From: Butyrivibrio sp.
GTDB taxonomy: Bacteria > Bacillota > Clostridia > Lachnospirales > Lachnospiraceae
Direction of reading: 5' to 3'
Length of the DNA: 64,000 bases
Assembly (NCBI RefSeq): GCF_017433805.1
Contig: NZ_JAFRGN010000013.1
Coordinates: 248,001 to 312,000, forward strand
The position numbers were made by a program, and so were the translations under genes. The first letter of the stretch is position 1; every line of letters starts with the position of its first letter. Below are positions 61-49,725 of this stretch, in pieces. The notes under the pieces are model-generated. The model made no database searches. It was given only the letters and a program-made list of their open reading frames with translations, and had not been told where the DNA came from.

Positions 61-546
61 TTACTCTTCTGTTTTCTCTGGTGCCTTCTGAGGTGCTGGA
101 GCTGCAGGCGCAGGAGCATTTCCTGCCTGAGCTGCCTGTGCTGCCTTAGCAGCAGCTGCTGCAGCTGCTCTTTCCTTAGCTGCCTTCATAAGAGCTTCCT
201 GAGCTGCAATAGCCTTCTCGGACTGCTTGAAGGTCTTGGTAACTTTCTCTGATCCAGGTTCCTGGAAACGAAGTCCCATTGAAAGACATTTCTTAGGGCA
301 GTTATCAACGCAGCATCTGCACTGAATACAGCTCATAGGTCTGATAGACCATGTCTTAGCAACCTTATCTACAGTGATAGCGTGTGTAGGACACTTGATA
401 GAACAAAGTCCACAGAGCACGCATACATCCATATCATTTTCTACATGTCCTCTTGTACCAACAGGGTATTCCTTCTCAACCTTTCTTGTCTTAGGCTTTG
501 ACACAAGATTACGAATAATTGTATTTTTGAAACTTGCAAGTGCCAT
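61..546 (-). CDS. echF: Ech hydrogenase subunit F, 2x[4Fe-4S] ferredoxin-like protein
   Basis: 161-residue polyferredoxin subunit that should carry electrons from ferredoxin to the [NiFe] module of a membrane-bound energy-converting hydrogenase. Two cluster-binding motifs are visible: CVLCGLCSIKCP near residue 42 and CIQCRCCVDNCP near residue 73. It is the last gene of echABCDEF, 35 bases after echE. The last roughly 45 residues are an Ala/Pro/Gln-rich low-complexity tail ending in KTEE, which the fold does not need; EchC has a similar tail. Homologous NuoI-like proteins are generally of similar size or smaller. Identity as EchF rests on the cluster motifs plus the gene order and is secure. 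Confidence 0.9.
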   Translation of the reverse strand: MALASFKNTIIRNLVSKPKTRKVEKEYPVGTRGHVENDMDVCVLCGLCSIKCPTHAITVDKVAKTWSIRPMSCIQCRCCVDNCPKKCLSMGLRFQEPGSEKVTKTFKQSEKAIAAQEALMKAAKERAAAAAAAKAAQAAQAGNAPAPAAPAPQKAPEKTEE

Positions 547-581: not shown

Positions 582-1664
582 TTACCTTTCAGTACAACTG
601 ATACATGGATCAATTGTAAGAACAAGAATAGGTACATCAGCAAGGTCACATCCCTTAAGAGTCTCAACAAGACCAGAAAGGTTAGCGAATGTGGGGGTGC
701 GGACTCTCATTCTGTCTATGAACTTAGTTCCGTTAGCCTTTACATAGTAAAGAGCTTCTCCACGAGGCTGTTCAATACGCATCATATATTCGCCGTTTGG
801 CATTCCCTTAACAGGAACTTCAATCTCGCCATCCTTAGGCATCTTGTCGATACACTGACGGATGATATCGAATGCCTGGAAGATTTCCTTAATACGGCAC
901 TCTGTACGAGCATATGAATCACCTTCAGTTGAAATGATTGGCTCGAAATCAATATCGCCATAAGCACAGTATCCAGTGCTACGGATATCTCTTGCGATTC
1001 CGCTGGCTCTAAGGAATGGTCCAGCACATCCAAGAGCATCAGCCTGCTCAGCTGTGAGAACTCCTACGCCACGAAGTCTTGTCTGAACAGCCATATCTGT
1101 AAGGAATGGCTTAGATATAGCCTTAAGCTCTTCTTCCATTCTATTAATTCTCTGGTAGAAATCCTTGAGCATTTCATCAGATACATCTCTTCTGATACCG
1201 CCTACCTTCATAACAGAGAAGATAACACGTCCACCAGTTGATGCCTCGAACATATCAAGAGCATCCTCTCTAAGTCTCCAGCAATCCATATAAAGAGACT
1301 CAAATCCGAAAGCATCTGCTAAAAGTCCGAGCCAAAGAAGATGTGAATGTACTCTGGAAAGCTCCGACCAGATTGTTCTAAGGAATCTTGCTCTAGCAGG
1401 TACTTCGATATCCATGATATGCTCAACAGCCTCTGAATAACCAAGGCCGTGACCAAGTGAGCAGATACCGCAGATACGCTCAGCAACATATACCATTTCA
1501 TTAAAATCTTTTTTATCAACCAGCTTCTCAAGACCTCTGTGGATGAATCCGATAGAAGGAATAGCTTCTACTACCTTCTCATCTTCCATAACAAGGTCAA
1601 GGTGAATTGGTTCCGGAAGAACCGGATGCTGGGGTCCAAATGGAATTACACTTCTTGTAGACAT
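582..1664 (-). CDS. echE: Ech hydrogenase large (catalytic [NiFe]) subunit E
   Basis: 360-residue NuoD-like large subunit of a group 4 [NiFe] hydrogenase; it holds the Ni-Fe site where 2H+ and H2 interconvert. The N-terminal L1 motif RICGICS and the C-terminal L2 motif DPCISCTER provide the four Ni-binding cysteines. The protein ends at that TER, so no cleavable C-terminal peptide follows the last cysteines. The ATG at 1664 is preferred because a GGAGGAA ribosome site sits just upstream; an in-frame TTG at 1679 is part of that site. It lies between echD and echF in the operon. Maturation would need HypA and HypB, encoded near 59-60 kb. Confidence 0.93.
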   Translation of the reverse strand: MSTRSVIPFGPQHPVLPEPIHLDLVMEDEKVVEAIPSIGFIHRGLEKLVDKKDFNEMVYVAERICGICSLGHGLGYSEAVEHIMDIEVPARARFLRTIWSELSRVHSHLLWLGLLADAFGFESLYMDCWRLREDALDMFEASTGGRVIFSVMKVGGIRRDVSDEMLKDFYQRINRMEEELKAISKPFLTDMAVQTRLRGVGVLTAEQADALGCAGPFLRASGIARDIRSTGYCAYGDIDFEPIISTEGDSYARTECRIKEIFQAFDIIRQCIDKMPKDGEIEVPVKGMPNGEYMMRIEQPRGEALYYVKANGTKFIDRMRVRTPTFANLSGLVETLKGCDLADVPILVLTIDPCISCTER

Positions 1665-1679
1665 TTTTGGTTCCTCCAA

Positions 1680-2012
1680 TTATTTAAATGGTGTCTCGAT
1701 CGCTGTACGATAGAGCTTACCTTCAAAGTCAATATTGATCATCTTGATCTGTACTCCGAACAGATCATGCATCTCATTCTCATAGATAAAAGCACAAGGA
1801 TAGATGCTTGTAATACTGGAAATCTCCTGATCCTCTGGAAGAGTTATCTTGAGCTGTTTAACCTCAAGGTCCTTACCAAATGAATATATAAGTTCGTAAG
1901 CATCAGGAATACGTGTAGCGCACTGCTGCATAAGATGATAGCCCTGGAATTTGAGCTTCTGGGACTCATCAATAATGCTCTCAGGATTAACAGTTATAAA
2001 TTCTGTATTCAT
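1680..2012 (-). CDS. echD: Ech hydrogenase subunit D (NuoC-like)
   Basis: 110-residue hydrophilic subunit related to the 30-kDa NuoC subunit of complex I, which docks onto the catalytic module. The segment SITSIYPCAFIYENEMHDLFG, ending at the conserved E-x-HDLFG signature, is typical of NuoC/EchD proteins. Its ATG overlaps the echC stop codon by one base (TGATG), which implies translational coupling, and echE follows after only 15 bases. Assignment relies on the HDLFG signature and the conserved A-B-C-D-E-F order. Confidence 0.85.
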   Translation of the reverse strand: MNTEFITVNPESIIDESQKLKFQGYHLMQQCATRIPDAYELIYSFGKDLEVKQLKITLPEDQEISSITSIYPCAFIYENEMHDLFGVQIKMINIDFEGKLYRTAIETPFK

Positions 2013-2680
2013 CAGCCGTTTTCTCCTTTCACATCATTATTTGCAGCTGCAGGTGCTGGAGCCTTAGGAGCTGGAGCTGCAGGCTTAGCTGCAGGTACTA
2101 CTGGCTTAGCACTAGCCTTAATCTTCTCTTCAGCCTGCTGTCTGAGAGCTTCCTCTGTAAGAACAGCATCATACTGAGTACTTGGATCATAATCATCAGC
2201 AGTCATATGAACAGCCATCTTGCTGTAATCAACAGTACAGTAGCCAGCCTTCATAGACTCTTTTAACTTCTTTCTCTTCTCTTCAAGAATGCCTACAGCC
2301 TTAACAACGCCCTCGATAAGAGCCTCAGGTCTTACAGCACAGCCTGGAACATATACGTCTACAGGAACAACCTTGTCAGCGCCGCCCAGAATGTTGTAGC
2401 ACTCCTTAAAAATACCGCCATCACAAGCGCAGATACCACATGCAACAACAACCTTAGGATCAGGCATCATGTTATAGAGCTGTCTGATTACAGGAGCTGT
2501 CTGAGCGTTTACACCGCCTGTAAGGAGCAGTACATCTGCATGCTTGGGATTACCAGTATTGATAATGCCAAAACGCTCTACGTCATAAAGTGGAGTCATT
2601 GTGGCAAGAACTTCTATATCACAGCCATTACAGCTGGAACCGTCATAATGTAACACCCATGGTGATTTAGAAATATTCAT
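2012..2680 (-). CDS. echC: Ech hydrogenase small subunit C (NuoB-like)
   Basis: 222-residue electron-transfer small subunit that carries the [4Fe-4S] cluster next to the Ni-Fe site. Cluster cysteines are visible in SSCNGCDIEVLA near the N-terminus, CGICACDGG in the middle and VPGCAVRPEA, a pattern shared with NuoB and group 4 hydrogenase small subunits. The conserved fold ends by about residue 150. After it comes an unusual C-terminal extension that is rich in Ala, Pro and Lys over the last 40 or so residues. Family members without this tail are commonly about 150 residues. Gene order and the cysteine pattern make the call firm; the role of the tail is unknown. Confidence 0.92.
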   Translation of the reverse strand: MNISKSPWVLHYDGSSCNGCDIEVLATMTPLYDVERFGIINTGNPKHADVLLLTGGVNAQTAPVIRQLYNMMPDPKVVVACGICACDGGIFKECYNILGGADKVVPVDVYVPGCAVRPEALIEGVVKAVGILEEKRKKLKESMKAGYCTVDYSKMAVHMTADDYDPSTQYDAVLTEEALRQQAEEKIKASAKPVVPAAKPAAPAPKAPAPAAANNDVKGENG

Positions 2681-2710: not shown

Positions 2711-3580
2711 TTATTTCAATACGTTCAGAATTAACAGATTGGTTCCTGCAAATACAAGAATCACACTCCATGTAACAATAAGCATTGTTTTGTATTTTAC
2801 TCTTGGGAACAGGTTATCAATAAGTGTTTCCAGGAAAAATACTACAGCAATAGCAATAATTGCCCAAAGACGGCTGATAGGATTGTTGTTGATGAAGAAC
2901 AATCCAACAATACCAAGCATAAGTACTGTGTCGTACCACTCTGCTATTTCTACAAGAGCAAGGTTACTACCGGAAAGATCTGTTGTAAGTCCCTTAACCA
3001 TTTCCTGGTGCATATGGTGTGATGTACTAAGGTCAAATGGTGACTTTCTAAGCTTGATGATAAGGATAAATACAAATCCGATGAAGAATCCAGGGATCTG
3101 AACAATAGCTGGAACAGGCTTTGTAATAAGCTCATCTACCATGAAACTTCCATTTGCATAGTAGAAACCAATAGCAACAAGAAGAGTCATTGGCTCGTAG
3201 CACATCATCTGGAGAAGCTCACGCTGTGCACCCATGATACTGTAAGGTCCGTTTGTAGAGAATGCTGCAAGAACAAGCATAACCTCTGACATAGACAGCG
3301 CGAAGAATACTAAAAGCATATCTCCACCAGCAAAGAAAAGTGCTCCTGTAAAGATGGTGAAAATAAGATAAACAGTTACAAACAGAACCTGAATACTGTT
3401 AACAACGGTTGTCTGCTTGTGAAGTAGCTTATTAACATCAAAAAATGGCTGAACTACTGGTGGGCCCTGTCTTCCCTGCATACGAGCTGAGAAAACTCTA
3501 TCTAGTCCAGACATAAGGCCGCCGATAACAGGTGCCAAAAGAATATATAATAAAGCCTTTATAATCATCCACTTATACAT
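2711..3580 (-). CDS. echB: Ech hydrogenase membrane subunit B (NuoH-like)
   Basis: 289-residue integral membrane protein with about eight hydrophobic segments, homologous to complex I subunit NuoH/ND1. It couples the hydrogenase module to the ion-pumping arm. The conserved cytoplasmic loop is seen in GLDRVFSARMQGRQGP near residue 25 and in KLRKSPFDLSTSHH near residue 180, with charged residues typical of the quinone-like site loops. The ATG at 3580 follows a GGAGG site. The longer reading from a TTG at 3595 would place that GGAGG inside the gene. The start overlaps the echA stop by 8 bases, so the two are translationally coupled. Confidence 0.92.
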   Translation of the reverse strand: MYKWMIIKALLYILLAPVIGGLMSGLDRVFSARMQGRQGPPVVQPFFDVNKLLHKQTTVVNSIQVLFVTVYLIFTIFTGALFFAGGDMLLVFFALSMSEVMLVLAAFSTNGPYSIMGAQRELLQMMCYEPMTLLVAIGFYYANGSFMVDELITKPVPAIVQIPGFFIGFVFILIIKLRKSPFDLSTSHHMHQEMVKGLTTDLSGSNLALVEIAEWYDTVLMLGIVGLFFINNNPISRLWAIIAIAVVFFLETLIDNLFPRVKYKTMLIVTWSVILVFAGTNLLILNVLK

Positions 3581-5504
3581 GTAAAGCACCTCCAACTACG
3601 ACTATAAGCATTACAAGAACAAGAACTGTCGCAATCCAAATACATGGCCACAGAAGCTTCTTCTCACCAAAGAAGTCCTCCATATACCAGTTAGACATAT
3701 AAAGAGCTCTTTCCTTGCCGAATGAATCGATGTAATGTCTGTCATCACCAGCGTTAACACCGGCTACATAAGACATTGTCATCTTGGAATTCTTACCAAT
3801 TGAGAGGAATCTAGCTCCAATTGGAATCATGAATATCATAGTTACCATGATCATCATGATAACAACATCGCTACCACCGATAACGTCAGGAATATTTGTG
3901 TGGAAAGCCTCGTTAAGAATAGGCTGAACCATGTGTCCTGACATCCAAGGGAATGCGAAGCACATAACTACGATCATAGCTGTAAGAGGGAAAATGGAAA
4001 CCATCTCACTCTTAGGTGTAATATCTTCAAGCTCGAATGACTGATGAATAACTGTACAGATCTTACCGAGCCATTTTGCCCAGTAGAAAAGCGTTGAACC
4101 TGAACCAAATACAAGGAACAGAACAAGCCATACAGATCCTGAATCTACGAATGACTTAAGAGCAGCCCACTTAGAAACGAGCATACCAAATGGAGCCATG
4201 AACATACCGCAGATACCAATGATCATGATGAATGCAAGTCTTGGAAGCTTGATGATAAGTCCGTGCATATCCTCGATATCACGGCTGTGCATACAGTTCT
4301 CAATATCACCAACTGTCTGGAACAGAAGTGACTTAGAAACAGCATGGAAAAGAACAAGCATTACTGCAGCCCATACACCCTCTGTTGTACCAGTTCCGGC
4401 GCAGGCTGTAATAAGACCAAGGTTTGAAATTGTAGAATAAGCAAGTACCTTCTTACCATCACTAACTGTAATTGCAAGAAGTGATGCAGCAAAGAATGTG
4501 AATCCGCCGATAACTGTGATCATAACACCTGTAAGAGTTCCTTCCATAACAGGTGAAAGTCTGATCAGCATATACACACCAATCTTAACCATTGTAGCTG
4601 AGTGAAGAAGTGCACTTGAAGGTGTAGGTGCAACCATGGCACCAAGAAGCCATCTTGAGAATGGGAACTGTGCACTCTTTGTAAGAGCTGCAAAAGCAAA
4701 TAATGTAACAGGAATCATGATAACTTTGGAAGCCTCTGCACTTGTAACCTGGCTGAGATTAGAAATGCCAAGAGCCATATTGCTGTACATAAGACCAGCT
4801 GCAAATCCGCAACCACCAAGAAGGTTCATCCAAAGAGCTCTGAATGAATTGTCTATAGCTTCCTGAGTTCTGGTATATCCAATCATAAGGAATGAACATA
4901 CGCTTGTGATCTCCCAGAAGAAATAGATCCATGAAAGACTGTCGGAAGAAATAAGTCCGAACATAGCTCCAAGGAATACAAACATAAGTGCAAGGAAATA
5001 GTTAGAACGATCAACAACATCTGTATGATGATGATGATAATCCTTCATATAACCAGAAGCATAGATACAGATAAGGATACCTACGATACCTACAATGAGG
5101 TACATAACTGCAGCGAATGTATCGATGCGGAAATGAGTATTACCCTCTACTGCCTTACCAGTAAGATCCATCCAAAGAACTGGAAGTGTTCCAGCCATTG
5201 AAATAAGAATTGCATAGTATTTTTTATATTTGATACTAAGGAAACAAACGAGACACATAAGGAATACTTCACCGCAAATAATTACAGTGTCAGCTGCATG
5301 TGCCTCCTCAAGATACATAAACTGTGATGTATCACCGGACATTAATACATTTACAGCAACGTAAATAGCCACAGCCATGATAGTAAAACCACCAATCATG
5401 ATTACGGCGCTTCTCAAAGGACTAGCCTTCTTGAGACAGAATATTACTATTGCCATTAAGAAAGGAAATAAAATAAGAAAATTAACTAAGTTTGGAATAG
5501 CCAA
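3573..5504 (-). CDS. echA: Ech hydrogenase antiporter-like membrane subunit A (NuoL-like)
   Basis: 643-residue polytopic membrane protein of the NuoL/MrpA antiporter family, the subunit expected to move H+ or Na+ as electrons pass through Ech. Signature stretches include WIYFFWEITSVCSFLMIG near residue 195 and the lysine-containing segment TKSAQFPFSRWLLGAM near residue 275, followed by PTPSSALLHSATMVKIGVY. Translation appears to start at a TTG codon (5504) with an AAGGGG site nine bases upstream; no ATG precedes the conserved region. It is the first ech gene, 38 bases after the metal-sensor gene, and shares its transcript. Confidence 0.92.
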   Translation of the reverse strand: MAIPNLVNFLILFPFLMAIVIFCLKKASPLRSAVIMIGGFTIMAVAIYVAVNVLMSGDTSQFMYLEEAHAADTVIICGEVFLMCLVCFLSIKYKKYYAILISMAGTLPVLWMDLTGKAVEGNTHFRIDTFAAVMYLIVGIVGILICIYASGYMKDYHHHHTDVVDRSNYFLALMFVFLGAMFGLISSDSLSWIYFFWEITSVCSFLMIGYTRTQEAIDNSFRALWMNLLGGCGFAAGLMYSNMALGISNLSQVTSAEASKVIMIPVTLFAFAALTKSAQFPFSRWLLGAMVAPTPSSALLHSATMVKIGVYMLIRLSPVMEGTLTGVMITVIGGFTFFAASLLAITVSDGKKVLAYSTISNLGLITACAGTGTTEGVWAAVMLVLFHAVSKSLLFQTVGDIENCMHSRDIEDMHGLIIKLPRLAFIMIIGICGMFMAPFGMLVSKWAALKSFVDSGSVWLVLFLVFGSGSTLFYWAKWLGKICTVIHQSFELEDITPKSEMVSIFPLTAMIVVMCFAFPWMSGHMVQPILNEAFHTNIPDVIGGSDVVIMMIMVTMIFMIPIGARFLSIGKNSKMTMSYVAGVNAGDDRHYIDSFGKERALYMSNWYMEDFFGEKKLLWPCIWIATVLVLVMLIVVVGGALHV

Positions 5505-5542
5505 GGTATTACGCCCCTTTCACACAATAATTTCATGATATC

Positions 5543-5845
5543 TCATGAATTTTTCATAAATTTGTCGATAGCCTCATTTAATTCAATGATAGCTTCCTCA
5601 TCACCGTCTTCTACTGCATGGACAATGCAGTGAGCAATGTGCTCTTTAAGAATCTCCTTACCACAGTTATTGATAGCAGATTTTACAGCTGACAGCTGAA
5701 TCAGAACCTCTGCACAATCCCTGTCGTCCTCCACCATCTTCTTAACAGATTCAAGGTGTCCGATAGCCTTGGATAGCCTGTTAATAATTACTTTGGTATG
5801 AGCTGGATCATGGTGATGGTGATGATTATGGGTATGAGAACTCAT
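5543..5845 (-). CDS. CsoR/RcnR-family metal-sensing repressor, InrS-like (probable Ni sensor)
   Basis: 100-residue all-helical DUF156 repressor. The family fingerprint is His12-Cys44-His69-Cys73. From published work, the spacings equal those of RcnR (H3-C35-H60-H64) and InrS (H21-C53-H78-C82), and the last position is Cys as in InrS and copper-type CsoR. A run of histidines (positions 8-12, plus 4, 6 and 16) precedes the fold. It is the first gene of the ech operon, so nickel seems the natural ligand for a [NiFe] hydrogenase operon; that specificity is inferred. The ATG at 5845 follows a GGAGG site; the upstream TTG at 5857 is not needed. A G-tract operator lies in its promoter. Confidence 0.85.
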   Translation of the reverse strand: MSSHTHNHHHHHDPAHTKVIINRLSKAIGHLESVKKMVEDDRDCAEVLIQLSAVKSAINNCGKEILKEHIAHCIVHAVEDGDEEAIIELNEAIDKFMKNS

Positions 5846-5864
5846 AAAAACCTCCAAAAATAAT

Positions 5865-5927
5865 GTGCGTTTTCGTTAATTTTTTCACTTAGAAAGACAA
5901 AAAAATTTAAAAACGATAAAAACGCAC
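5865..5927 (-). other. Hairpin in 5' leader of the metal-sensor/ech transcript
   Basis: Inverted repeat GTGCGTTTT (5865-5873) and AAAACGCAC (5919-5927), extendable by an AACGA/TCGTT pairing, folds a stem just downstream of the predicted start site and ending about 10 bases before the GGAGG site of the metal-sensor gene. It may stabilise the mRNA 5' end or tune initiation. No known riboswitch class is recognised. Confidence 0.45.
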
Positions 5928-5943
5928 ACTAAAGCCGAGAATT

Positions 5944-5972
5944 ATTATATCCCCCCGAGGGGGTAAAATCAA
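5944..5972 (-). promoter_or_regulatory. Promoter of the metal-sensor/ech operon
   Basis: The minus strand reads TTGATT, 17 bases, TATAAT, a near-consensus vegetative promoter about 100 bases upstream of the sensor's ATG. The 17-base spacer is filled by a C5-TC-G6 tract (see the operator entry). The -35 lies only a few bases past the ohrR-like stop codon. Confidence 0.75.
5948..5966. promoter_or_regulatory. CsoR/RcnR/InrS-type operator in promoter spacer
   Basis: TATCCCCCCGAGGGGGTAA is a near-palindrome of the G/C-tract type bound by CsoR, RcnR and InrS repressors (A/T flanks around a run of G and C). It lies exactly between the -35 and -10 of the promoter of the gene for such a repressor, so autorepression and metal-induced ech expression follow as an inference. 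Confidence 0.7.
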
Positions 5973-5978
5973 TAAATT

Positions 5979-6422
5979 TTATCTTACATTTCCAATAATC
6001 TTATATAAAAGTGTATACAATACTTCTGCATCTTTTGCAGTAAGATTTACACAAGAGCCAATCTTGCTAGGGATGCACACAGCATGCTCCTTGAGCTTCT
6101 CGCCCTCTTCTGTAATTGTGACTACAAGATTTCTCTCATCCTCATTAGATCTAACTCTGCTGATATAGCCCTTAGACTCAAGTTTTTTGAGCACAGGAGT
6201 AAGAGTGCCTGAATCAAGATACAGACTCTCACCAAGAGTTTTAACATTTACGCACTTCTTTTCCCAGAGCACCATCATGGTAATGTACTGAGTATAAGTA
6301 AGATCTATCTCGTCGAGATAAGGCTTATACTTTCTGATGATTTCTTTTGAACATGCATAAAGAGGAAAGCAAATCTGATTCTCCAATTTTAATGCTGCAT
6401 ACTTTTCTTCGTTATTTTCCAT
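5979..6422 (-). CDS. OhrR-like MarR-family transcriptional regulator
   Basis: 147-residue winged-helix regulator. The N-terminal motif LENQICFPLYA carries Cys18, matching the peroxide-reactive cysteine of Bacillus OhrR, and the recognition region YLDSGTLTPVLKKLESKGYI plus NEDERN wing follow the same pattern. OhrR represses organic-peroxide resistance genes until the cysteine is oxidised. No ohr peroxidase gene lies next to it; neighbours are the broken P-type ATPase and the ech operon, so its target is unknown. It has its own candidate promoter at 6456-6485 with an AT-rich palindrome downstream that could be its operator. Confidence 0.8.
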   Translation of the reverse strand: MENNEEKYAALKLENQICFPLYACSKEIIRKYKPYLDEIDLTYTQYITMMVLWEKKCVNVKTLGESLYLDSGTLTPVLKKLESKGYISRVRSNEDERNLVVTITEEGEKLKEHAVCIPSKIGSCVNLTAKDAEVLYTLLYKIIGNVR

Positions 6423-6511: not shown

Positions 6512-8743
6512 TTAGGCTTTATTTTGTATTTTTTTCTCAATATAAGTAAATAATTTAGTTAAATACCTCATAAATGGCTCTGTTGCTATAGCAAAAAGGA
6601 CAAACAACATTACACATTCTATTGATACATAGCTGATTGAAAACAGATCATGGAACAAAAATGCCCCTATGATCATGCCAATAATACATCCAACAAGCAC
6701 TTTAACTCTATAAGCATTAAGCGGCGAAGATATATTAGCAAGGATAATAAACCCTACTATCGCAAGAAGGAATGTTGATGCAACAGATATATCTTCCGGA
6801 TTAACGCCAAATGTATTTCCGAACACAACAAGCGCTGCTATAGCAAAAAAGTCTGTAAGAGCCGCAGGCATAGCCTTTAGAAGTACTTTAACAAGGAATC
6901 TTCCTTCTATTCTCCTGTTGTTGGGTTCCATAGCAAGGAAAAATCCTGGTATACCGATATTCACCAAACTCACCATTGTAATCTGAGAAGGCTGCAATGG
7001 ATATGTCAGAACACTTATTATAGAAAAAAGTGCAAGTAGCAAAGAGAAAATGTTCTTAACAAGGAAAAGAGTTGCTGTTCTCTGAATGTTATTGATATTT
7101 CTCCTGCCCTCTGCCACAATCTTGGGCATTCTGGAAAAGTCACTGTCAATAAGAACAACCTGAGAAGCCTGAATAGCAGCATCTGAGCCTGCAGCCATAG
7201 CAACAGAACAGTCAGCATCCTTCATTGCAAGAATATCATTAACACCGTCACCAGTCATAGCAACTGTATGGCCTTTTTTCTTAAGAGCTCTGATTATCTT
7301 CTGCTTCTGTTCGGGAGAAACTCGTCCAAATACAGTATATCTTTCTACAAGCTCTGGAATGTCAGCATCTTCCATGGTGCTGGCATCAACATATTTATCG
7401 GCTCCTTTTATTCCTGCATTTCTTGCTACTTCTGAAACAGTAAGAGGACTATCACCAGAAATAACCTTGATATCAACCTTCTGTTTTCTGAAGTATTCAA
7501 AAGTCTCTCTGGCATTCTCTCTTATAGGATTCTGCAAAAGAATAAATGCAAGTGGTACGCTGTAAGAATTATCAAGGCTTCCCTCTGGAACAGGAAGAGA
7601 AACTGCACCCATAGAAGGATCAAAAACTTCGCTTCCATCAGCGCCACCATAATATCTTGCAAAGCACAGAACTCTGAGCCCCTTACTTGCATAGCTCTCT
7701 ATTTTTTCTCTGTAGGCATCATAATTCTGCCTAAGGATAAACTCAGGAGCTCCCATAACATACGTAGCATCATCGAACTGTACACTACTATATTTATATT
7801 TAGAAGAAAATGCATGAAAACTGATACATGTTCTGTTAGTTGAATACTTAAAGTAATCCTCAAGAGCATGCATAGTAATGTTATCATCAGGAACACAGCC
7901 AATATAATCTGACACAAGAACACTTATAGCTTTAAGCCTGTCCTCATCATCCTCATATCCTGAATCTGCAAGCTCGGCTCCGGCTACCAGCATACTGTTA
8001 TCAGTGATAGTACCAGTCTTATCAACGCAGATAGTATCAACTCTTGCCAAAGTCTCAATACTCCTCATATCATGGAGCATAACCCTATTCCTGGCAAGGC
8101 GAATAGTACTAAGACCTAGGGTTATACTAAGAAGAAGGTATAAACCTTCCGGAATCATTCCAATAAGAGCTGCAACAACAGATGGCACAGTTTCTGCAAA
8201 AGAATTGCCCTGTATAACAAAGCTCTGCACAAAAAGAGCTATTCCAATAGGAATGATCAATATACCAGCAGCAATAACTATTCTGTTGATAGAACGAACC
8301 ATTTCTGACTGTTCGGAAGAAGGCATCTTTTTGGCCTTGAGCATCAGCTGAGAGATATAAGAATCAGCTCCAACCTTGGTCAAAACAGCAAGACATCTGC
8401 CAGATACCACAAAGCTTCCTGATTTAAGCTCGCTATCCTTAGTCTTGACTATTTCGTCTGCTTCGCCAGTAAGAAGCGCCTCATTTACATTAACCTCGCC
8501 ATCAATAACAACTGCATCAGCACAGATCTGGCTTCCGGCAGTTAAAAGAACTACATCCCCCAACACAAGCTTATCTATAGAAACGGTATCTTCAGAGCCA
8601 TCTCTTATGACTGTCACAGTAGACTGGTTGATCACGCTAAGCTTATCCAATACCTTCTTGGCCTTAAGCTCCTGTGCAATTCCTATAAGAGAATTACAAA
8701 TAATAACTGGCAAAAAGGTTAATGAATTAAAGGCTCCAGCCAC
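6512..8743 (-). CDS. P-type cation-transporting ATPase, main open frame (interrupted gene)
   Basis: 743 codons of an E1-E2 ATPase: actuator TGE motif in LLTGEADEIVK, M4 motif IPEGL, phosphorylation site DKTGT, hinge TGDGVND and paired C-terminal membrane helices. The PEGL motif suggests a Ca2+- or Mg2+-type pump rather than a heavy-metal CPx ATPase. This frame opens with GTG directly after an in-frame TAA (8744-8746). Upstream in the same frame, codons from 8917 encode the missing N-terminus, so the intact gene would have 801 codons. Either the gene is broken, or the stop is a sequencing error, or translation restarts at GTG without the first membrane helix; no ribosome site is evident for that restart. 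Confidence 0.75.
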   Translation of the reverse strand: MAGAFNSLTFLPVIICNSLIGIAQELKAKKVLDKLSVINQSTVTVIRDGSEDTVSIDKLVLGDVVLLTAGSQICADAVVIDGEVNVNEALLTGEADEIVKTKDSELKSGSFVVSGRCLAVLTKVGADSYISQLMLKAKKMPSSEQSEMVRSINRIVIAAGILIIPIGIALFVQSFVIQGNSFAETVPSVVAALIGMIPEGLYLLLSITLGLSTIRLARNRVMLHDMRSIETLARVDTICVDKTGTITDNSMLVAGAELADSGYEDDEDRLKAISVLVSDYIGCVPDDNITMHALEDYFKYSTNRTCISFHAFSSKYKYSSVQFDDATYVMGAPEFILRQNYDAYREKIESYASKGLRVLCFARYYGGADGSEVFDPSMGAVSLPVPEGSLDNSYSVPLAFILLQNPIRENARETFEYFRKQKVDIKVISGDSPLTVSEVARNAGIKGADKYVDASTMEDADIPELVERYTVFGRVSPEQKQKIIRALKKKGHTVAMTGDGVNDILAMKDADCSVAMAAGSDAAIQASQVVLIDSDFSRMPKIVAEGRRNINNIQRTATLFLVKNIFSLLLALFSIISVLTYPLQPSQITMVSLVNIGIPGFFLAMEPNNRRIEGRFLVKVLLKAMPAALTDFFAIAALVVFGNTFGVNPEDISVASTFLLAIVGFIILANISSPLNAYRVKVLVGCIIGMIIGAFLFHDLFSISYVSIECVMLFVLFAIATEPFMRYLTKLFTYIEKKIQNKA

Positions 8744-49522: not shown

Positions 49523-49725
49523 CCGCGATATACGGATTGCTCCGTATCGCTCACCCGCGATATACGGATTGCTCCGTACTTCGTACTCTCGCAATCCTAC
49601 GGGCATTCGGAATTCGAAATACTCTCTACGTTCGTATTTCTGTATTCCTCATGTCCGTTCAGTCCTTTCATAAATTCAATGTTTTGTGCAAGCACAACAT
49701 TGAATTTACTCAGTCCTTATATCGC
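49523..49725. repeat. Multi-branched inverted-repeat element between fliF and fliG
   Basis: A 24-bp perfect direct repeat (49523-49546 and 49555-49578; each holds TACGGA-TTGC-TCCGTA) is followed by nested stems GGATTGC/GCAATCC, GAAATAC/GTATTTC (49616-49640) and a 12-bp stem AAATTCAATGTT/AACATTGAATTT (49672-49707). The outer arms GCGATATACGGA (49525-49536) and TCCTTATATCGC (49714-49725) pair at 11 of 12 positions and the latter touches the fliF stop codon. No coding potential. Confidence 0.65.

Follow-up and report, generated by a model that had tools for sequence, protein, structure and literature searches.

A gene for a CsoR/RcnR-family metal sensor, csoR, lies directly upstream of an Ech [NiFe] hydrogenase operon in a 64,000-nucleotide stretch of a Butyrivibrio genome (hereafter the window), and the promoter of the two carries a C/G palindrome in its spacer. 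The locus raises the question of which metal such a sensor would respond to and which genes it would control. A sequence-only reading of this DNA had described a 100-residue CsoR/RcnR protein with His12-Cys44-His69-Cys73, a 17-bp promoter spacer with a C5-TC-G6 tract, and echABCDEF 38 bases downstream of the sensor. We found all of these in place: the protein was confirmed by its open reading frame, its PF02583 match and an alignment, the spacer from the sequence itself, and the distance by the gap between csoR and echA (5505-5542). The features are collected in Table 1.

Table 1. Features of the csoR-ech region in the window, with the basis of each assignment
Feature	Position	Strand	Basis
InrS-type CsoR/RcnR-family sensor gene (csoR)	5543..5845	minus	ORF (ATG at 5845, stop ends at 5543, 100 aa); PF02583; best solved match InrS 5fmn
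Promoter TTGATT-17-TATAAT of csoR-ech	5944..5972	minus	TTGATT 5972-5967, 17 bp, TATAAT 5949-5944; hexamers recognisable in 38/41 csoR-ech loci
Operator-like palindrome CCCCC-TC-GGGGGG in promoter spacer, centre near -20	5951..5963	minus	Sequence; same palindrome before nikM and import operons
Leader hairpin between promoter and ribosome-binding site	5862..5931 (ends approximate)	minus	Fold z-score -4.3
echA (Proton_antipo_M)	3573..5504	minus	ORF (TTG start at 5504); Pfam
echB (NADHdh)	2711..3595	minus	ORF; domain match
echC (Oxidored_q6)	2012..2680	minus	ORF; domain match
echD (Complex1_30kDa)	1680..2012	minus	ORF; domain match
echE, large subunit (Complex1_49kDa and partial NiFeSe_Hases match)	582..1679	minus	ORF; Pfam
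echF (4Fe-4S)	61..546	minus	ORF; domain match
marR-family gene immediately upstream, kept with ech	5979..6422	minus	Domain match; neighbourhood comparison
P-type cation ATPase upstream of marR	6512..8743	minus	Also so in many relatives

Six subunits (5504-61) and the cysteine pairs of the large subunit identify the operon as an Ech [NiFe] hydrogenase. EchE carries CxxC pairs near both ends, which we take to be the NiFe site of the large subunit, and its top names in NCBIfam were complex I/FpoD models, below their cut-off; hypF, hypD and hypE come after echF, outside the window (L002). Co-transcription of csoR and ech, as earlier assumed, is likely, the gap being 38 bp with no terminator found in it. 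A marR-family gene precedes ech in 40 of the 41 csoR-ech loci and in 12 of the 19 ech loci that have no csoR beside them, and a search for a terminator between marR and csoR found none, so that ech may also be transcribed past the palindrome from the marR side; a MarR-family protein may be its main regulator. The P-type ATPase farther upstream reached the NCBIfam cut-off of general P-type models only. In the leader of csoR-ech, none of 200 shuffles was as stable as the hairpin, and single-sequence folds of 39 leaders of relatives gave a similar stem, with letters differing in some branches; RNAalifold on the leader alignment returned no consensus RNA structure, and it is the single-sequence folds that suggest a conserved RNA element. 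The sole Rfam match in the window was a Clostridiales-1 RNA (49558-49724, minus strand, 115.4 bits), far from ech.

The sensor scored 92 bits against Pfam PF02583 (cut-off 22.8), which places it in the CsoR/RcnR family, and it is the single PF02583 protein encoded by the window genome. Among solved structures its top match was InrS (5fmn, 6e-21), the best CsoR reaching 2.4e-15, and in the alignment to 5fmn its H12, C44, H69 and C73 corresponded to H21, C53, H78 and C82 of InrS, the W-X-Y-Z positions at InrS spacing. This HCHC set was invariant in the window-like proteins (63 of 63 distinct sequences), and the other 32 distinct family proteins of the comparison comprised 30 with RCHC, one with KCHC and one that was unscored. 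The RCHC proteins are the copper-type paralogues of the genus, with Arg at the first position, and are found mostly near P-type ATPases, with ATACCCC-type sites. In a midpoint-rooted family tree of 26 rows, the 15 window-like proteins formed a single group (98/96) and were joined on their side by InrS and chain 6ahx (91/83, not starred); the opposite side held the copper-type paralogues together with three structurally solved CsoRs, placing the sensor nearer to InrS than to the copper CsoRs. Assignment to RcnR failed, with Cys73 at the last ligand position and 45.7 bits against the NCBIfam RcnR model, whose cut-off is 138. Judged by its sequence, the sensor holds as an InrS type. The earlier claim that H-C-H-C defines nickel sensing survived in part: the InrS-type assignment stood, on the best match, the tree and the constant HCHC, but the fingerprint alone is no proof of nickel, because C-H-C is the copper site of CsoR according to a review (PMC7055735) and an InrS variant lacking His21 was still able to bind nickel in one assay (PMC4235346). 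What the fingerprint misses is supplied by the constancy of the first His, by the tree and by the gene neighbourhoods. The sensor would be the equivalent in Clostridia of InrS, the nickel sensor of cyanobacteria, with nickel as its probable metal.

The palindrome takes up most of the 17-bp spacer, TTACCCCCTCGGGGGGA. The 3.45-Mb window genome holds a single exact copy of ACCCCCNNNGGGGG, at the ech promoter. Allowing one mismatch adds two places: the first is about 100 bp before nikM/cbiM, whose operon also has nikQ- and nikO-like genes, and the second (L009) has no evident metal gene downstream. Within the 64-kb window the exact core CCCCCNNGGGGG was present once. With up to two mismatches there were six overlapping or weak matches versus 3.2 expected, and since 9 of 100 shuffles reached six, only the exact copy is notable. 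As the window genome is a 74-contig draft of a single strain of the species, the tract at ech may also reflect an assembly error.

Across the genus, the palindrome was present in 28 of 29 readable regions upstream of nikM/cbiM and degenerate in the 29th (L119), a set that leaves out an incomplete region (L094), a short one (L072), six partial matches and three duplicates of the site in the window genome. With WACCCCCNNGGGGGCTT as the query and one mismatch permitted, 79 Butyrivibrio genomes yielded 118 sites, spread over 60 of them, versus 3 for the reversed-pattern control, and by such sequence counts the palindrome exceeds chance expectation. The window's ech copy is not in the 118-site list, having two flank mismatches to WACCCCCNNGGGGGCTT, and it lacks the CTT flank typical of import sites. 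The sites examined closely precede nikMNQO, NikA-like ABC systems, ECF S components with methyltransferases, and FecB-type systems; a few precede genes of no clear metal role. The proposal that the C/G tract is an operator-like element gained support from this recurrence before nikM and other import operons.

A wider scan of named genomes for the operator with a TATA at 21-22 nt returned at least 120 sites in at least 119 stretches. For the 120 sites among the matches listed, the best match within 1 kb was to NikM/CbiM (53), NikA/NikB-like (17), FecB/FecC (13), a small membrane protein (10), an ECF S component (5), a methyltransferase (5), a PepE-like protein (4), the sensor gene (3) or others (2), with none at 8, the reference proteins for this matching having come partly from operator loci themselves. 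Sensor relatives were encoded in the DNA of 10 of the 119 listed stretches. A cyanobacterial match (L235) with no gene assigned downstream was taken as chance. As a predicted operator, the palindrome is a mark of metal-import operons in 60 of 79 Butyrivibrio genomes, and elsewhere in Clostridia. The nearest NCBIfam names of the importers were cobalt CbiM for NikM and nickel NikA, all below cut-off.

Several operator loci carried further genes. The small membrane protein (MACFLVPAAEAIVV...) that follows the operator at 10 of the 120 listed sites (L233, L253, L289, L302, L304, L320) is a candidate new metal transport component; neither the L253 stretch nor the second small protein of L304 had a Pfam match. 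At L187, L189, L190 and L200, operator-linked importers were accompanied by SAM-dependent methyltransferases, a DUF4198 protein and an AstE/AspA-type enzyme, possibly metallophore genes. Two inward-facing operators about 7.5 kb apart flank a NikA-like gene group at L188/L189, and similar pairs were seen in other genomes. The name of the PepE-like protein found after the operator at 4 of the 120 listed sites (L229, L243, L301, L343) is unsupported, the first 100 residues of L243 having no Pfam match.

Sensor and operator tend to occur together. Of 79 genomes, 55 had both, 5 the operator only, 4 the sensor only and 15 neither (Fisher p 8e-9); among the 47 with completeness of 90% or more and contamination of 5% or less, the numbers were 38, 0, 1 and 8 (p 3e-8), both p values overstating the association, as the species are related. 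The five operator-only genomes are 60-84% complete. CbiM was looked for in 61 genomes, ten of them from the group of 15 with neither, and of these ten G008 alone had it, there without the operator, so that the association largely amounts to possession of an importer and is to that extent confounded. The sensor gene stood directly upstream of echA in 41 genomes, and 18 further genomes carried a 53-63% identical form located away from ech (8 near nikM, 1 behind larC and 9 with no recognised nickel gene in the stretches examined); no genome had both forms. The sensor clade thus occurs with ech-hyp, larC (Ni_insertion) and NikA-like systems, and it is linked to nickel import genes by the shared palindrome, a putative operator, by co-occurrence and partly by gene neighbours. 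NikR_C was found in 0 of 79 genomes of the genus, in a search whose control was positive in 5 of 14.

At ech, the palindrome was confined to one species among those compared. The arrangement in which this operator precedes ech was not borne out in related genomes: it was present in 1 of 41 csoR-ech loci, the window's own, so that an operator conserved before ech is ruled out. Allowing one mismatch, a scan of the 79 genomes with CCCCCNNGGGGGNATATAAT matched at ech solely in the window, and two other matches precede NikA-like genes. Of the 19 ech loci without an adjacent csoR, 18 had readable upstream stretches (L137 stops short of echA), and none of the 18 contained CCCC-N0-4-GGGG. In L208, a relative with a 97% identical sensor, the palindrome is absent and the spacer is equally long, differing from the window's at 13 of 17 bases. 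Spacer-type operators were found at 7 sites in 6 of 391 genomes of the class; besides the window's, one (L347) adjoins a copper-type csoR and the others have no evident link. The common targets of the sensor would be the importers (nikMNQO, NikA-like ABC systems), and, as part of the reading with two operator positions set out next, the window's species would recently have wired ech into sensor control by gaining one operator, a step that we propose tentatively.

The two kinds of site differ in position. In 65 of 77 distinct import sites the first base of the -10 lies 21 or 22 nt past GGGGGCTT; on the assumption of a transcription start 7 bp beyond the -10, this centres the operator near -43. 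The -35 in the 71 sites scored matched 2-4 of the 6 positions of TTGACA. The import operator overlaps the -35, and the ech operator lies inside the promoter. Fixed spacing and a weak -35 are typical of activator sites, though no proof of activation, and a site overlapping the -35 also suits a repressor; a centre near -20 is a repressor position. In the model that we favour, the sensor would bind the C5-N2-G5 palindrome, and its shared task in this NikR-less genus would be to regulate operons for the import of nickel and possibly of cobalt. One branch of the genus has the sensor gene within the ech operon, and the window's species carries the palindrome between the -35 and -10 of that operon as well. 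Without metal the sensor would occupy import and csoR-ech promoters alike, assisting the former from about -43 and blocking the latter from about -20. Nickel filling the H-C-H-C site would release the sensor, whereupon import would fall and sensor, ech and hyp would be made, so that a single release event would turn supply down and demand up. What the sequences show is the order of the genes, the fingerprint, the tree, the distribution of the operator and the two places that it takes in promoters; that this sensor binds there, that its metal is nickel, that nickel makes it let go and that it acts in opposite ways at the two kinds of site is what we infer.

We favour this model because InrS is the best solved match, the tree joins InrS to the window-like side, HCHC is invariant, the sensor is the sole PF02583 protein of its genome and NikR_C is missing from the genus; and because the palindrome stands before nikM, exceeds its control by 118 to 3, co-occurs with the sensor, keeps its spacing and is found also before the sensor gene itself. 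Against it count the 40 csoR-ech loci without the palindrome, the missing CTT flank, the confounded co-occurrence, the 9 of 18 non-ech sensors without a nickel neighbour, the cobalt names nearest to NikM, the -35 overlap that fits a repressor, and possible read-through from marR. On balance, a metal-free InrS-type sensor that supports import and represses ech until nickel releases it has, taken whole, about an equal chance of being right or wrong. The bolder formulation, in which one metal-free sensor activates nickel importers from about -43 and represses the nickel-consuming Ech from about -20, with an InrS-type activator-repressor replacing NikR in such Clostridia, falls somewhat short of that.

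Other regulatory logics can be read from the same sites. A sensor that, metal-free, represses importers and ech alike, so that nickel turns both on, would agree with the description of CsoR/RcnR-family members as de-repressors (PMC4235346, PMC7055735) and with the -35 overlap of the import sites, where a repressor would work too; however, importers induced by their own metal would follow an unusual logic, InrS is reported to enhance nik import (PMC7055735), and strict spacing with weak -35 hexamers is activator-like, and we consider this arrangement unlikely. Conversely, a metal-loaded sensor might bind and repress the importers, and in the window's species ech as well. Although it is normal in homeostasis for a metal to shut off its own importers, as through NikR and Nur (PMC7055735), such a response would be contrary to that known for InrS and RcnR (PMC7055735), and repressing a nickel enzyme under plentiful nickel would make little sense, which leaves this the most improbable of the alternatives.

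The ech palindrome might instead have a minor regulatory role or none, ech being driven from the marR side under MarR control and the tract being a recent neutral change. Its absence from 40 of 41 relatives and the retention of marR upstream, with no terminator found before csoR, speak for this; yet 13 of 17 spacer bases changed relative to L208 with the length kept, producing an exact operator core beside the gene of its likely binder, and the exact pattern ACCCCCNNNGGGGG is single in the genome, so that we give neutrality a rather low probability. Similarly low is our estimate that the true metal is cobalt or copper. The CsoR-like C-H-C copper site (PMC7055735), the cobalt CbiM models nearest to NikM, though below cut-off, and the binding of Cu(I), Zn(II) and Co(II) by InrS in vitro (PMC7055735, PMC4235346) would allow it, but the genus has its separate RCHC copper-type paralogues with sites of their own, the sensor clade keeps company with ech-hyp, larC and NikA-like systems, and a search at nikM of the window genome (L100) revealed no Rfam riboswitch.

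Among known systems, InrS of Synechocystis PCC 6803 is the closest to the favoured model. According to a review, nickel frees InrS from DNA, Synechocystis is without nikR, and InrS, besides repressing one gene, has an enhancing effect on the operon for nik import (PMC7055735). The window sensor shares with it the H-C-H-C spacing, the best structural-sequence match, the side of the tree, a NikR-less genome and, as predicted here from sequence, the link to nik import together with repression of another gene, the comparison being one of protein, genome content and targets. The second target differs: in one species here it would be the [NiFe] hydrogenase operon that encodes the sensor, whereas that of InrS is the efflux gene nrsD. 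RcnR and DmeR belong to the same family and are described as responding to nickel by DNA release, but their last ligand position is His (PMC7055735), that of the window sensor Cys. With copper CsoR the sensor shares the fold family and the C-H-C triad, and CsoR is reported to use G-tract pseudopalindromic operators (PMC3902906); the copper-type paralogues of the genus are set apart from the sensor by their first-position Arg and by their place in the tree. NikR offers the parallel of a single nickel regulator for uptake and, as predicted in other organisms, for [NiFe] hydrogenase genes (PMC2667541), although it is of a different family, has a different operator and was not found in the genus. 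Among the matches listed from the open-licence literature, we found no paper on a CsoR-family nickel regulator of Clostridial importers or of Ech. Work on the cyanobacterium has already established this type of sensor and its connection with nickel import; what appears new, within the literature searched, is a putative Clostridial regulon with a fixed operator position and the probable species-specific capture of ech.

NikR was not found in 79 genomes of a genus in which most members have metal importers and many a nickel-dependent, proton-pumping hydrogenase. With an operator this sharp and widespread, the metal regulon of these bacteria can be read and tested. The window's species and its relative with the 97% identical sensor form a natural before-and-after pair for metal control of an energy-conserving enzyme. 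The host is a rumen-type bacterium, and metal control of ech would bear on rumen hydrogen production.
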